From Ureaplasma canigenitalium ATCC 51252 (GTDB lineage: Bacteria; Bacillota_I; Bacilli_A; Mycoplasmatales; Mycoplasmoidaceae): a DNA stretch of 64,000 bases. The stretch covers positions 124,001 to 188,000 of the forward strand of contig NZ_KL544010.1 in assembly GCF_000712165.1 (NCBI RefSeq), given 5' to 3'. Position 1 is the stretch's first letter. Each line of letters starts with the position of its first letter. Both the position numbers and the translations under genes were made by a program. The notes beneath the pieces are model-generated. The model was not told the origin of the DNA and did not search any database. It worked only from the letters and a program-made list of their open reading frames with translations. Positions 43,400 to 56,484 of this stretch are shown here, one piece after another.

Positions 43400-44248
43400 C
43401 TATTTCTTTGACTTATCTTCTAAGCTCTTAACTCCTGTATTGTTCAACTTTTCAATTGACATCAGTTGTGTTCTGGCAAGCTTTCTAAGTTCTATCATTC
43501 TTTCTTTTTGATCCATGCCTTTTCCGATAAGAATTGCATTATAGCTTTCCATATTTGCTAGTACCAATAACTCATTCAGACTTACATAGTCTCTCATATT
43601 TCCCTTTAAGTCAGGATTTTCTTCATGCCACTGTTTTGCTCTTTTATTAAATAAGGCAACATTGAGCATATCTGCTTCACTTGCGTATTTATAAGATAAC
43701 TGTTCGTTGGTAAGATTCTTTAAAAGATATTCTTTGATTGCATCTGTATGAATTTTGTAGTTAATCTTAGAAATTTCTCTATTCAGATTCCATCCTAATG
43801 ATAGTTTAGAATTTTCATCTGACTTAAGTCTTTTGTAATCCTGAATTACATACATCTTAAATTCAGCAGAAATCCATGAAGCAAATTCAAAGGCAATATC
43901 TGTATGTGCAAATGCACCACCATATCTTCCACCTTTTGAGATAATTCCGATTGCTCCAGTTTTCTCTACCCATTTCTTAGGGGACAGTGTAAAGGAATTA
44001 TATCCAGCTTCCGATTTAATTCGGTCGAATTCGACCGAATTGAAATTCATGTTGTTTAAGCTTTCCCATAAACCAAGAAATGCAATTGTATCTTTTTTTC
44101 TCATCCAATTTTTAATTACATCACTTGGTTCATCGCTTTTATATCTAGCAATATCTGTTAGACTTATATAGTCGTTTTTAAAGTCTTCAGTATAAATTTG
44201 AATAGCAAAACCTTTTGCTTCAATCGTGTCTTTTTTTGCATTAGACAT
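43400..44248 (-). CDS. KilA-N domain protein, recently acquired
   Basis: 282 residues in one uninterrupted frame. The N-terminal KilA-N DNA-binding domain shows ISLTDIARYK, VIKNWMRKKDTIAFLGLWE, WVEKTGAIGI, GRYGGAFAHTDIAFEFASWISAEFKMYV. The C-terminal part is helical, with EADMLNVALFNKRAKQW. All six Trp codons are TGG and none TGA. A strong AAAGGAGG site lies 8 nt before ATG 44248. Both are unlike most genes here and fit recent arrival from a standard-code Firmicute. KilA-N proteins come from phages and integrative elements; the function is probably DNA binding. Confidence 0.9.
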   Translation of the reverse strand: MSNAKKDTIEAKGFAIQIYTEDFKNDYISLTDIARYKSDEPSDVIKNWMRKKDTIAFLGLWESLNNMNFNSVEFDRIKSEAGYNSFTLSPKKWVEKTGAIGIISKGGRYGGAFAHTDIAFEFASWISAEFKMYVIQDYKRLKSDENSKLSLGWNLNREISKINYKIHTDAIKEYLLKNLTNEQLSYKYASEADMLNVALFNKRAKQWHEENPDLKGNMRDYVSLNELLVLANMESYNAILIGKGMDQKERMIELRKLARTQLMSIEKLNNTGVKSLEDKSKK

Positions 44249-44410: not shown

Positions 44411-44893
44411 GAAACCCACAAGTAGGGTCTAATACATTTGAATTTGAAGAAATCTCGGTTATATCGCACATAAAATCTGTCATATGCGTTGGTGTGTATG
44501 CTTGATTTTTATCTGCCTTACCTACATATTTATTAAATGTTGTAAAAAATAAATTAAGTAGGTCTTCTCCTGTAGGTGTTTTGTTATTAATGTACGGAAC
44601 TAAATCGTTCTGTATTTTTTCAACTATTTTGATTAATGATTCAACTTTTAATTCTTTGATTTCTTGTTTGTCTAGGATATTTACTAATAAATCTATTTTA
44701 ATTTGATAATTGAAATCTAATGTCTAATTTTTCATATTTCCTTTTTTCTTTTATATTTAGAGACCTGTAAATTTTTTTAATAGTTTCACTAAAATCTAAA
44801 TTATTCTTTTTGTATTCTTGTGGATAACTAAATTCATCATTTTCAATATTAGATACTAAATACTTTCCACCAATTTGATTTACTATTTAACTT
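44411..44893 (-). pseudogene. Deleted partial copy of hsdM
   Basis: The stretch repeats the N-terminal half of the intact hsdM (48051-48348 and about 48817-48996) with few changes. About 470 nt are missing in the middle, joined at TTGATAATT/GAAATC. A codon near its start has become TAA (GAA in the intact gene). It lacks the SAM and NPPF motifs and cannot make an active enzyme. It abuts the palindrome and the KilA-N insert on one side and IS debris on the other. Confidence 0.85.
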
Positions 44894-45131
44894 CTCTCAA
44901 TTTTTAAAGTTAATTGATTATTTACAGCATCTTCATTTTGCAATGAATTAAAGAAATCGCCGCTTCATTGGCATTAATTTTTTTTCTATTACATAGGAAA
45001 CCGCATACAATTTTTTATCGATTAAATGTTGTGATTTTCAATATTTAATAGGGGCAAATAAAATATAATTATCTGTCTTTTGTCTTAAATATCAGTAAAA
45101 TCCTGAAAAAATAAAGGTATTAGCTATGTCG
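44894..45131. other. Degenerate DNA between hsdM copy and transposase remnant
   Basis: On the minus strand, short frames read SGFYWYLRQKTDNYILFAPI and, in another frame, GDFFNSLQNEDAVNNQLTL. These look like decayed protein-coding DNA with shifts, but I do not recognise the source. Confidence 0.35.
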
Positions 45132-46209: not shown

Positions 46210-47215
46210 TTATAAATATTTTGAAAAAGGAAGCGATTTTATATAGTTTTCCATAAAATCTCAGTCAGGAACGTTATTTTTTGTCGGTAGTAAAATTTTT
46301 GTATTTCTTATATTTTTTTGATTTCATTTTCTACCGTATCCATATCTAAACTGTTCTAATTTTAAAATCGAAACTACATAAAGATAGTGATATTTATTAA
46401 GATGTTTATTCTTAAACCTTATTATTTCAACATGGTCACTGGCCAAAAAAGGAACTTCTTGATAAAACACAGCTCCAATAGTCGCTGAGTCTATGGTTAT
46501 ACAATTCCCAGGTTCGGTATAGTAATTTACTTTACATTCAACACCATTATTGCTATTTTTTGTTGTAATGTAATTATAAATTCCACCCTTATCAAAATTT
46601 TCTTTGTTTGTTGTTTTGCTTCCATATACATCAAAATATTCATTAACTTGAAACAATGCCATTTCAGACATTGACCATGAAAGTTTTAACCTTAACAAGG
46701 ATTGAGAAATTTCATAACTCTCTTTCTCTCTCTCTCTCTCTCAATTCTCTTATGTATTTGTCCATATAATCTCAATCAGGAATTATATTACCTTCACGAA
46801 TCAACGCTGGTAACTTTATTTTAGTTTTCTTAATAAAATCTTGATTAAATGGACGATTGTATGAATACCTAAATTTTTCTAGTCTTAACACTGAAACAAT
46901 AAATAAAGCTATGTTTTCATTTAAATGAATATTGTAAAGTTTTGTTATATTATTACCAGTTATAAAATCAATTGGTTGATAAAAAATTTGTGCTCCCTCA
47001 CCACCAATTGTTATACAATTACCTTTTTCCAATGGAAATTCACCGTCATCGCTTATAAAAAAGTTTGTTCCATTATCATTTTCAGTTCTAGTTATATAAG
47101 GAATGGTATAGCCAATGAAGTCTTTAGCGTCTTCAATAGTAACATTTTTACTTCTTTCAATTGTAAAAAGTTCTTTTAATTCAAAAAAACGCCAATTATT
47201 ATTTATTTCTATCAT
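46210..47215 (-). CDS. hsdS: Type I restriction specificity subunit HsdS, split by a GA-repeat frameshift
   Basis: Start ATG 47215 overlaps the hsdM end. The first half (MIEINNNWRFFELKELFTIE ... NCITIGGEGAQIFYQ ... VLRLEKFRYSYNRPF) is a full target-recognition domain, ending WDYMDKYIRELRERE. The second half carries VNEYFDVYG, NCITIDSATIGAVFYQ and LKLEQFRYGYGRK. It ends WDFMENYIKSLPFSKYL* at 46210, a second recognition domain. The helical linker is encoded by a (GA) tract (46726-46742). As it stands the first frame stops at 46643, giving a half-subunit of 190 residues. One extra GA, or two fewer, would join both halves. HsdS sets the sequence methylated by HsdM. Confidence 0.88.
46726..46742 (-). 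repeat. (GA)8 simple repeat within hsdS
   Basis: The plus strand reads CT eight times plus C, 17 nt. It encodes RERERE in the linker between the two recognition domains and sits exactly where the reading frame is lost. Confidence 0.95.
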
Positions 47216-47356
47216 TCAATTCTCCATATTTAACTTTAAATGCAATATACTCTCTAATAGTTCTAACAAAATTATCCTCATTCAATATTGAATAATCAGT
47301 ATCCATATAACCTTCGGGTAACCATTCATCAGCACTGTCTACATGTTTCATAATGC

Positions 47357-49018
47357 TTAAACCAGGTATCTCTTGTTTTTTTCAAATGCTTCGAATCATT
47401 TCTTTTTAGTCGTGTCTCAATCTGTTTTTTCAACCCTACCTTTGTTTTTTCTTTTGATGAACCCATCATCTTTGAAATAGCCAAAAAATGTTTTTTGATT
47501 ATCAGAATGTGGTTTACCAGTTTCAAAAAGCATAATACAAGAATTAATGCTGGCACCAGGATAAAATAGTTCATCAGGTAATGAAAAAACAGCAAGCAAA
47601 CTATTATTTTCAAGCATCAGTCTTTTATATTTTGCTATATTCTTATCGTTACCTATTGCACATTGAAGAGGTAAAATAGTTGCCAACTTTGCGCCTTTTC
47701 TCAAACTTTTTGATATTTCATACACAAAATATAAACCTTTTGTAGCATCAACTTTTGTTGTATCTTTAACCGGACAATCATTAGGCATATTTTGACCATT
47801 AAATGGTGGATTCATTAAAACTATATCAATATTTTTTTGTTTAATTCATTCAAGTTTATCAAAACATGAAGCTTTTATAATATTTGTTTTACCATCTTCA
47901 TGAATCAACATATTAGTTGTAGCTAATCCAAAAGCCTTGTCCTCTCGTTCAATCCCAAATAATTGATTTGCTTTTATGTTTTTGATTCTTTTTTCATCAT
48001 TTTTGGCTAACTTTATCATTTTCGACATTGCTTGAACCAAAAAAGAACCTGAACCACAAGTAGGGTCTAATACATTTGAATTTCAAGAAATCTCGGTTAT
48101 ATCGCACATAAAATCTGTTATATGCGTAGGTGTGTATGCTTGATTTTTATCTGCCTTACCTACATATTTATTAAATGTTGTAAAAAATAAATTAAGTAGG
48201 TCTTCTCCTGTAGGTGTTTTGTTATTAATATACGGAACTAAATCGTTCTGTATTTTTTCAACTATTTTGATTAATGATTCAACTTTTAATTCTTTGATTT
48301 CTTGTTTGTCTAGGATATTTACTAATAAATCTATTTTAATTTGATAATTATCGTCATTAGATGATTTAATTTTTTCTCTTAATTTTTCTTTTATACGATC
48401 TAAAATAGTTATTGTTCCTACTTCTGCATCCACAACTAAATTATTGTTTAAAGCTACCAAAATACTTCCAACAAATTGTGATCGTAAAGACTCTCTTATT
48501 CCTACACTATGTAGCAGGTTATTCAATTCATTTGTAGTTTCAATTACTTTATTTTTATCATTGGTTTTATTATTAAATAAATTTTCATAATATTCCATAG
48601 AATTTATAGTTGTTTCATCACTATTAAGTACCCCATTTATATAAACTCTAATAGCTTTAGTGTTCATATTCACTAATATAGAAACAATATTTCTATAATT
48701 ATTTGTCAATTCTTTTTCTAAAAAATAATATGTCATTAGTTGGTCTCTCTCGGACTTGCTAAATTCATATTTATCATTTTTTTTAGTTTCAATTTGTATT
48801 ATTGTATTTTCTTTTTGAAATCTAATGTCTAATTTTTCATATTTCCTTTTTTCATTTATTTTTAGAGACTTGTAAATTCCTTCAATAGTTTGACTAAAAT
48901 TTAAATTATTCTTTTTGTATTCTTTTGGATAACTAAATTCATCATTTTCAATATTACTTTCTAAATACTTTCCACCAATTTGATTTACTATTTCACTTCT
49001 TGTATTCATTTTAATCAC
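47357..49018 (-). CDS. hsdM: Type I DNA methyltransferase HsdM, 3' end frameshifted
   Basis: 553 residues as read. The N-terminal part carries a REase-like region (IIQIETKKND). The N6-adenine methylase core shows YTPTHITDFMCDI, LDPTCGSGSFLVQAM (motif I), DIVLMNPPFNG (motif IV) and LYFVYEISKSLRKGAKLATILP. GTG 49018 with AAGGA 5 nt ahead is favoured; ATG 49009 is possible. At an A7 run (47376-47382) the frame shifts. With one more A it would continue QEIPGLSIMKHVDSADEWLP ... to TAA 47199, overlapping hsdS. Those lost residues are the usual C-terminus. No hsdR is in the window. Confidence 0.9.
47376..47382 (-). repeat. A7 homopolymer at the hsdM frameshift
   Basis: Seven T on the plus strand (A on the coding strand). 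Adding one A restores about 55 C-terminal residues of HsdM and the overlap with hsdS. Confidence 0.85.
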
Positions 49019-52271: not shown

Positions 52272-52293
52272 ATATATATATATATATATATAT
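52272..52293. repeat. (AT)11 simple repeat upstream of the C5-methyltransferase gene
   Basis: Eleven perfect AT units, about 75 nt before the start codon at 52367. Length change of such a tract in a promoter region alters spacing or supercoiling and can switch transcription. Confidence 0.9.
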
Positions 52294-53589: not shown

Positions 53590-56484
53590 ATGATAAAAAA
53601 TAACACGCTTGAGTATTGAAAAATTGCAACTGATGTTAATATGTACCTCAAAGAAACAATTTGTCTTTGAGTAAAATCAGGAATTTTTAAATCGCTATTA
53701 AACGATGAAATCGTTTTTCAACGAAATAATAAGAAAGAAAAAGCTTACTTTAGAAACAATGAAAAGAAAATTTATTTCTATTGTAATGACAAGAAAGACC
53801 GAGATAAAGTAGGCCAGAGCGATGTTACCTATCGTCAAATTATCCAAACTCTAAAGTATCTTGAAGTCATTGAATTCATTAAAGAAGATGGTGATGATGA
53901 AATTTATCTCATTAATGATGATTTTAAAAAAGTAGCTAGGCTATCTAGTGATAAAGCAAAAATAAAAAATATAGATGAAATAATTTGCAAAAAATTAATA
54001 AAGAACCTTGAAAAGCACATTTTTCCCCTGGTCTTTAAAAAAGATTGCACTGATGATGAGTTGGATGAAGAACAACCAAACATTAATTCTGACAAAAGCC
54101 AATATAATTTCCTTTATTCTATCCTACTTATTTATGACCGCGAATTTCTTAATAGTGAAATTGCAGAGAAACTTCTTAAAATAAAGATTGATGATAAGGA
54201 TACATACAATAATTTTGTTGAAAAACTTAATGAGTATCATTATGAACTAAAAAACCAAATTAAAAAATTAATTAAAAAAACTTTGGGCAAATATGACGAT
54301 TGATACTTTACAGCAAAACTCACGGAGATTGAAGCAAAACTAGATAATCCAGTTGAATCCAAAAGTGATTTCCAATTGGATATCGAAGACTACTCTGAAC
54401 GTAAAGGAGTTTTAAATCCAAAACGATGTACTGTCGCTGAATACCTTGGATGAAAGAAAGAAATTACCATTCCCATTTTTCAACGAAACTATATTTGACC
54501 AAGTATTAACGCATCTAACCTAGTAGCATCAATGATTGAAAAACACATGAAAAATAAAAGTGATAATCAAAAAGATTGTTATTATTTAAATAATATTTCA
54601 CTTTCTGTTGACAATAACGGGTTTAAAATACTTGATGGTCAACAACGAACTACAACTTTATTTTTAATTGTAATCGCGTTTTACCGCTACCTTTATCATT
54701 TAATGAATAGTGCGGAAGGAATGAAGGATAAAGGTTTATCTATCCTTAATCATTTAAACAACAAAATTCCTCTTAAATTAATTCTAGAAAAAGGTCAATC
54801 TTTTAGTGAAAATAATGATGACTATAATCATTTTCTTACAATCTATAAAGAAAATAATCGTTCATTTAATGATCGAGATAAAAAAATTCTTTTCCTTAAA
54901 TCTCAATTTCATTCCAACTATGAAACAATTTGCAAGGAGTTGCAGGAAAGAATTTCAACAATCAATGATCTTGAGTCGTTTATTGATTACTTTCTTAATG
55001 ATTCTGACATAATCATCGCTCCTTGTTCTGTAAGTAATGAGTCTGATGCAACTGATATTTACATTCGAATGAACCAGTGTGCACAACCATTAAGTGCTAT
55101 TGATTTATTAAAAAGTCGAATCGACCAGATTAATCAAGAGAATAAGATTAGTAGTCAAGAAAGAACGAATCAGCTTATTGTTTACAATAAGATTTTTAAT
55201 CGTTACTTCACAAAGAAATCAAGTAAAAATGAAATTGATATCGATTTACTTAATAAATTTATTGAAACATTCCTTGTTTATGATGAAGAGAAAAATATAA
55301 GAGCGAAAATTTCAACTGGATCAACATATCAAGGGTTAAATATTTTAATTGAGCAATTTAGTAGGAAAGATAAAAACCGTATTATGCACCAATTATACGA
55401 GAAGACAATCATTTTTGACTTCTTACTAAATGGTAATTTTAAACTTTTTAAAAAGTTAAATGATCAAGTTGAAAAAACAAAAACGATGGGACAAATATTC
55501 GCAGATTATAGAGGTTTATTTGATCAATACGAAAATAAGGAAGTTGCAAAAATACAACTTATTTGTCACCAGATTGTCGACATCACTAATTGGGGTAAGA
55601 AGCATGTCTACCTTGTCATCATTAACCGATTAATGGAACTACTTGATATTTGAAACGGTGAATTCTCTCACCTAGAATTATTTAGTCGATACTTATTAAT
55701 ACTTGAACAATTCCAAAATAAATGAAATTACCTTTATTTTGAAGGACAGTCATTGACACAAAAATTATTAAAACTAGCAAATGAGATGCCGAACGAAGGC
55801 AACCCTAAACAAAATTACTTAAAACTAAAAGAATACTTACCTGAATTCAAGACAAAGTTAAACAGCATTTTAGAATGTAAAGATGATGATGAAACCAAAT
55901 CGAAATTTAAAGAAGAACTTAATAGACTTTATGGTGCAATGAACAATGATGAAAATCCGAATAGAACCTCTAATCTAAATAAGAAAATGATTCTTTCGCG
56001 AGTTTGTGTTTACCTTCATAATAACAATAAATTTTGCTATACGAAATTAACTAGTGAACGAAATAATGAGTTTCTCGACTACAAAGACTATGATCTCGAA
56101 CATATCCTGCCGATTAAGAAGGATACCAAACAAGATTTTCTAGGTCACATTGATGATAAGGACTACTATAAATATGTTAACCAAATTGGTAACTGTGGTT
56201 TACTTGAACCAACAACAAATAAGTCTGTTCGGAATAATCTTCATCAAAAGATTGTTAAAGCGGTTGAAGATGTTTCAATTAACAACTTCTCGATTAAAGG
56301 GAAGGAAGGTAGTTTAGAGAAAACTTACCCTTGCATTAAAACTAGTGAATATAAAAATGAACATTACCAGTTTATACAAAACGATTGAGAAGAGTGAAAA
56401 CAAAATATCGAAAAACGTACTGAACAGATTCTAGATATATTTACTGAAATTATGTTTAGTGACATCGATGATGACAACAATTAA
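53590..56484 (+). CDS. DUF262/DUF1524 (GmrSD-like) nuclease with an extra N-terminal region
   Basis: 964 residues read through UGA Trp codons. Residues 1-280 are unrecognised; part (DVTYRQIIQTLKYLEVIEFI) looks like a winged helix. The DUF262 (GmrS-like, ParB-related NTP-binding) domain has IPIFQRNYIWP near residue 293 and the key ILDGQQRTTTLFL near 350, with DATDIYIRMNQCAQPLS later. The C-terminal DUF1524 domain (GmrD-like HNH nuclease) shows DYDLEHILPIKK near residue 834 and NQIGNCGLLEPTTNKSVRN. Known GmrSD enzymes cut glucosylated-hydroxymethylated DNA without a methyltransferase partner. Here the partner is a C5-methyltransferase, 11 nt upstream. Either the protein is a restriction half, or it forms a distinct defence unit. 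Confidence 0.88.

Follow-up and report, generated by a model that had tools for sequence, protein, structure and literature searches.

Does a dinucleotide repeat inside the specificity (S) gene of a Ureaplasma canigenitalium restriction-modification (R-M) locus merely break the gene, or does it choose between two products? We analyzed this locus in a 64,000-nucleotide stretch, hereafter the window, which corresponds to C1:124001-188000 of the 835-kb genome. The host uses genetic code 4 (TGA = Trp), and all features of the locus described below are on the (-) strand.

Reading frames of the S gene

As assembled, the first half of the S gene, containing target recognition domain 1 (TRD1), is located at 46643..47215 (-) and encodes 190 aa plus stop, from the ATG at 47215 to the TAA at 46643-46645. 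It matches Methylase_S (E 1.5e-14) and the PADLOC model Specificity_II (E 5e-15). The TRD2 half, at 46210..46749 (-), is in another frame, open from 46749 to 46213 for 179 codons plus stop, and matches Methylase_S of Pfam as well (E 1.8e-21). The 190-residue half and the two intact recognition domains in different frames, both noted in the initial annotation, are thus confirmed by the frames and by the Methylase_S match of each half.

A GA simple sequence repeat of 18 nt, the proposed switch, lies between the two TRDs at 46725..46742 (-), within the helix that follows TRD1, and encodes ...L-RERERE. In a local AlphaFold model (blocks with pLDDT of 88, 83 and 65), the RE repeat of the linker is placed in a predicted helix of residues 148-165. 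The tract can be read as (GA)9 or as (AG)8 after TTG. The initial annotation placed it correctly at the linker, and its count of eight GA units holds only in the (AG) register, the number being nine when the G of TTG is counted.

When the repeat number alone was changed in a script, three series of products were obtained. With n = 7, 10 and 13 the two halves were joined in S proteins of 333, 335 and 337 aa carrying two Methylase_S domains; with n = 6, 9 and 12 the product was 188, 190 and 192 aa, the assembled n = 9 giving 190 aa; and with n = 5, 8 and 11 it was 171, 173 and 175 aa. The expectation that one GA unit more, or two fewer, would restore the full gene is therefore exact (n = 10 or n = 7). 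TRD1 is retained in every state. We also considered that TRD2 might be translated separately, from a start of its own inside the gene; no clear ribosome site was seen.

Length of the tract and constraint on TRD2

According to a first-order Markov estimate, approximately 1e-5 tracts of such length are expected per genome. The tract is thus longer than chance would give, and changes of its unit number alter the frame of S. The 835-kb genome contains just two GA tracts of at least seven units, both of them inside R-M genes. The second one is a (GA)12 at C1:208918-208941 (L066:1501-1524), out of frame in a type III mod-like gene, and it is reminiscent of mod genes with AG repeats in other mycoplasmas (PMC3498834).

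The probability that the TRD2 frame stays open by chance across 179 codons is approximately 1.3e-5. TRD2 of the window is 58-60 percent identical to the TRD2 of a relative, G029, where this domain is in frame. The differences between the two genomes at the first, second and third codon positions are 29/25/48 percent for TRD2, compared with 29/23/47 percent for TRD1 and 30/20/49 percent for the R-M gene. Because the codon-position divergence of TRD2 resembles that of TRD1 and R-M, selection appears to have acted on TRD2 at the protein level, which would fit a domain that some cells translate or, until not long ago, did translate.

The tract in relatives

Relatives were searched with the R-M protein and an alignment of five relatives (A1), covering 95 genomes of the family, 320 of the order and a phylum sample of 392. 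A close full-family R-M relative (>690 bits) was found in nine mollicute genomes, including that of the window, and in five of the nine, again including the window, an AG/GA tract directly follows the codons for the end of TRD1 (Y-I-x-x-L or close). The tract is kept at the homologous site at differing lengths. It is (AG)9 and in frame in G029, giving a single intact S of 334 aa, and out of frame as (AG)9 in G090, (AG)11 in G157 and (AG)7 in G226, the last with a neighboring R-M gene that is broken near its N-terminus. In G029, in G157 and, judging from the match count, in G090, it is the sole tract of at least seven AG units. Such tracts in several species at one codon position are natural replicates of differing repeat number.

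The remaining close relatives show other arrangements. The linker of G047 has (AT)5, with the TRD halves in different frames; that of G072 is without a tract and in frame; G208 has only a half S, beside the R-M gene; and in G115 one TRD is fused to R-M. A more distant locus of G120 carries (AG)13 and (AG)15 between two TRDs, out of frame; AG tracts are abundant in G120 and G047, and the linker tract is less informative there. A search of genome contigs for named relatives with the half S as query returned one distant locus alone, in a Tissierellia MAG. Outside the order, the linker of the non-mollicute genomes G343 and G359 contains a short (AG)6, which is in frame and encodes ERES; the longer tract may have grown from such a precursor.

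Repeats were also observed upstream of two of the R-M genes. A (TA)10 in G047 (L058:3477-3496), approximately 50 bp before the R-M start, is a second possible expression switch, and a (GTTG)54 in G115 (L100:1044-1259) is located approximately 0.8 kb upstream of the related R-M gene.

A proposed switch between half and full S

The reading that we consider likely is that the S gene of this BcgI-like (type IIB) system, the type of which is discussed below, is a contingency locus where the GA tract switches between half and full S. The initial annotation had likewise proposed a phase-variable specificity gene with its switch at the inter-TRD linker, and this proposal is supported by the recurrence of the tract at the corresponding codon of other species, by the constraint on TRD2 and by the precedent of NgoAV. 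Slipped-strand mispairing within the population would alter the repeat number. One residue class modulo 3 would then yield the full two-TRD S, and the other two classes a single-TRD half, in which TRD1 is followed by the first part of the conserved helix. If active, such halves might pair and recognize a palindromic target. With nuclease and methylase predicted to reside in one R-M subunit, a change of S would shift the methylated and cleaved sites together. From one in-frame state to the next, the linker helix gains or loses one RE pair, and the spacer might be tuned in this way, by analogy with the TAEL repeats of EcoR124.

Several parts of this scheme have precedents. NgoAV of Neisseria gonorrhoeae is a type I system where a polyG tract in S selects either a half S, which recognizes the palindromic GCAN8TGC, or a fused S with another specificity (PMC9577141). 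A repeat tract decides between half and full S there as in the window, although the tract is polyG and not GA, HsdR is a separate subunit, and both states of NgoAV have been tested experimentally. In EcoR124I and EcoR124II, TAEL repeats in the inter-TRD helix set the gap length (PMC3874165). The repeat is in the helix between the TRDs in both cases, but the EcoR124 unit is 12 bp and always in frame, whereas in the window it is steps of two residues that may matter. The CR1 helix of BsaXI is at the place that matches the RE repeat helix of the window (PMC11997821).

With regard to the type of system, the locus resembles the BcgI-like type IIB systems of Helicobacter pylori (HP1471/HP1472 and JHP1364/JHP1365), whose S is phase-variable via polyG(13/14) (PMC3936762). 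They share with the window a fused R-M subunit, predicted in the window from sequence, and a separate S prone to phase variation at a simple repeat, and they differ in the polyG(13/14) repeat and in that half-S activity is not reported for them. With regard to the repeat, Atack et al. (2020), cited in PMC9465063, described AG[n] tracts within hsdS genes from other mycoplasmas. As presented in that citation, these are, like the tract of the window, AG/GA dinucleotide tracts in a mycoplasma S gene and are proposed to vary expression or specificity; the genes may be type I or BcgI-like, and may or may not include those of this species. An AG tract in an R-M gene is also found in the type III mod of MmyCI in M. 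mycoides subsp. capri, where clones differ in repeat number and activity (PMC3498834), but there it turns a type III methylase ON or OFF and leaves the specificity unchanged. Half/full switching by an S tract, polyG in a BcgI-like S and AG[n] in mycoplasma hsdS are thus already reported, and the literature searched gave no account of a type IIB lineage whose tract keeps one position in the linker helix.

The strongest competitor, to which we give somewhat less than an even chance, is plain ON/OFF switching, where the half S has no activity and the enzyme works only when the repeat number is in frame. In the BcgI-like system of H. pylori, polyG in the off-frame state is reported to keep S from being translated in full, and of the lone TRDs of H. 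pylori JHP1422/1423 one is active as a homodimer on a palindrome and another is not (PMC3936762). On the other hand, the halves of NgoAV are active, and those of EcoR124I and EcoDXXI work as homodimers (PMC3874165). Half-S genes without a second TRD adjoin the R-M gene in G219 as well as in G208, which keeps the idea of a palindromic target alive, and relatives often have a single TRD fused to R-M. If the half S is active, slippage in one step would give the cell another methylome together with another restriction target, which raises the question of how a cell would survive a combined methylase-nuclease suddenly reading a new site.

A wider form of the half/full switch is offered tentatively. 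It would be a type IIB switch throughout the mollicute lineage, with a GA tract grown from the ERES-coding (AG)6, which would choose among a bipartite target, a palindromic target read by a pair of TRD1 halves, and variants whose spacer changes by two residues at a time, with methylation and cleavage altered together.

State of the R-M partner

The upstream gene encodes a putative fused R-M subunit at 47357..49009 (-), with an N-terminal nuclease-like domain and an N6-adenine methyltransferase. It is 550 aa as assembled and lacks the last ~60 residues. The frame is lost at a run of seven A residues (A7) at 47376..47382 (-), and the C-terminal ~60 residues are encoded in the -1 frame at 47199..47399 (-), overlapping the start of S by 17 nt; this part is present in the intact relatives. 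The initial annotation, correct on the frames of S, had left out this frameshift, the nuclease-like domain and the use of TGA as Trp. With the R-M subunit frameshifted ~60 codons short of its C-terminus, the assembled copy may lack activity instead of having a new target, and this assembly lends no support to the view that a palindrome is now being methylated in the cell. We considered programmed -1 frameshifting at the A7 run (GAA AAA AAC in the 0 frame, with the heptamer in register) and rejected it as a leading idea, as the aligned relatives have no frame break there.

The methyltransferase core matches N6_Mtase of Pfam (E 2.4e-34). The N-terminal ~130 residues are extra, and D61, E74-T-K76 and Q90xxxY94 are invariant in 10 relatives; we take this D-(12)-ETK-QxxxY arrangement to resemble a PD-(D/E)XK nuclease with the QxxxY motif. 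A search with an N-terminal profile of the R-M subunit matched nothing, and a weak HSDR_N_2 match of this region (E 0.011, in 2 of the 10 relatives) is the sole profile support. The AlphaFold model of the subunit was poor (pLDDT 50), with an unusable N-terminal fold, and a search of solved structures returned the methyltransferase core alone for R-M and no match for S.

With both R-M and S frameshifted, the locus might be regarded as a decaying pseudogene with no function left. The loss of the R-M frame at the A7 run agrees with this, and so does a decayed partial second copy of R-M at 44416..44895 (-), where 44416-44711 corresponds to 48054-48349 (99%) and 44701-44895 to 48806-49000 (91%). 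Nevertheless, beyond the two shifts there is no stop in the 550 codons of R-M, 190 of TRD1 and 179 of TRD2, and the codon-position divergence indicates constraint on all three. Both lesions fall in repeats, and decay would not be expected to leave several species with a GA tract at the homologous site. We consider decay unlikely. For annotators, mollicute R-M genes broken at such tracts are likely to be switch states rather than pseudogenes. As a separate observation, the direct repeats (99 and 91 percent) between the broken copy and the R-M gene are such that recombination could delete S.

Type of the system

The initial annotation took the system for type I, and this assignment fared less well. 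The classical type I reading with a phase-variable hsdS can rely on the Methylase_S and N6_Mtase matches of Pfam, and one hsdR elsewhere in the genome could in principle act in trans. However, no hsdR was found near the S/R-M locus, where a type I system would have hsdR with M and S, and the only HSDR_N match in the whole genome (C1:6646-7206) is inside another hsd locus (C1:2292-9642), which has its own hsdM and hsdS. In addition, the partner in the window has the extra N-terminal domain with its invariant nuclease-like motif, and fused IIG subunits score best. The best PADLOC model for R-M was REase_MTase_IIG, which the protein of the window matched at E 9.7e-45 and its G029 counterpart at 4.6e-67, and the best for S was Specificity_II, which covered 1-326 of 341 in G029. 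A separate two-TRD S subunit next to the R-M gene is present, and in G029 both TRDs are in one ORF. A BcgI-like type IIB system is favored because of the N-terminal nuclease-like motif, the IIG and type II ranking by PADLOC and the placement of the sole HSDR_N gene in another locus. The system is thus probably BcgI-like, which is likely but not proved at the level of sequence comparison, and a type I system is quite improbable.

Finally, a sequencing or assembly error at the GA tract or the A7 run, with a true repeat number that is in frame and invariant, is conceivable since a single assembly is at hand, both repeats are error-prone and a type I hsdM elsewhere in the genome is likewise broken, at a C6 run, but it is very improbable given that the window has 56 A7 and 48 T7 runs without a similar break in housekeeping ORFs (by inspection), and that the tract is also present in the relatives, where it has 7 to 11 units and in most cases is not in frame.

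Other repeats and genes in the window and genome

The locus at C1:2292-9642 (L010) is a classical type I locus, where hsdM loses its frame at the C6 run in the NPPY motif. Two tandem two-TRD hsdS genes follow, joined by a G12 tract (L010:5196-5207), with hsdR behind them. Further S copies also contain polyG/C, a tract of 12 on C5 (L011:210-221) and one of 10 on C3 (L012:6169-6178). An ELEK-like four-residue linker repeat, reminiscent of the TAEL of EcoR124, differs in copy number between hsdS1 of L010 and the S copy of L011.

Inspection of C2 revealed a urease-like operon, which points to a Ureaplasma-like mollicute. In the window, an (AT)11 at 52272-52293, separated by 73 bp from the start codon (ATG, 52367) of a gene for a C5-cytosine methylase, is a possible promoter repeat; a GmrSD-like gene (53590-56484) follows the methylase gene. 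Close matches to a KilA-N gene at 43400-44248 were not found among the mollicute relatives searched. This gene shows 94.3 percent identity over 1105 bp to a conjugative plasmid of Streptococcus agalactiae (CP138365.1), which suggests that it was recently transferred.
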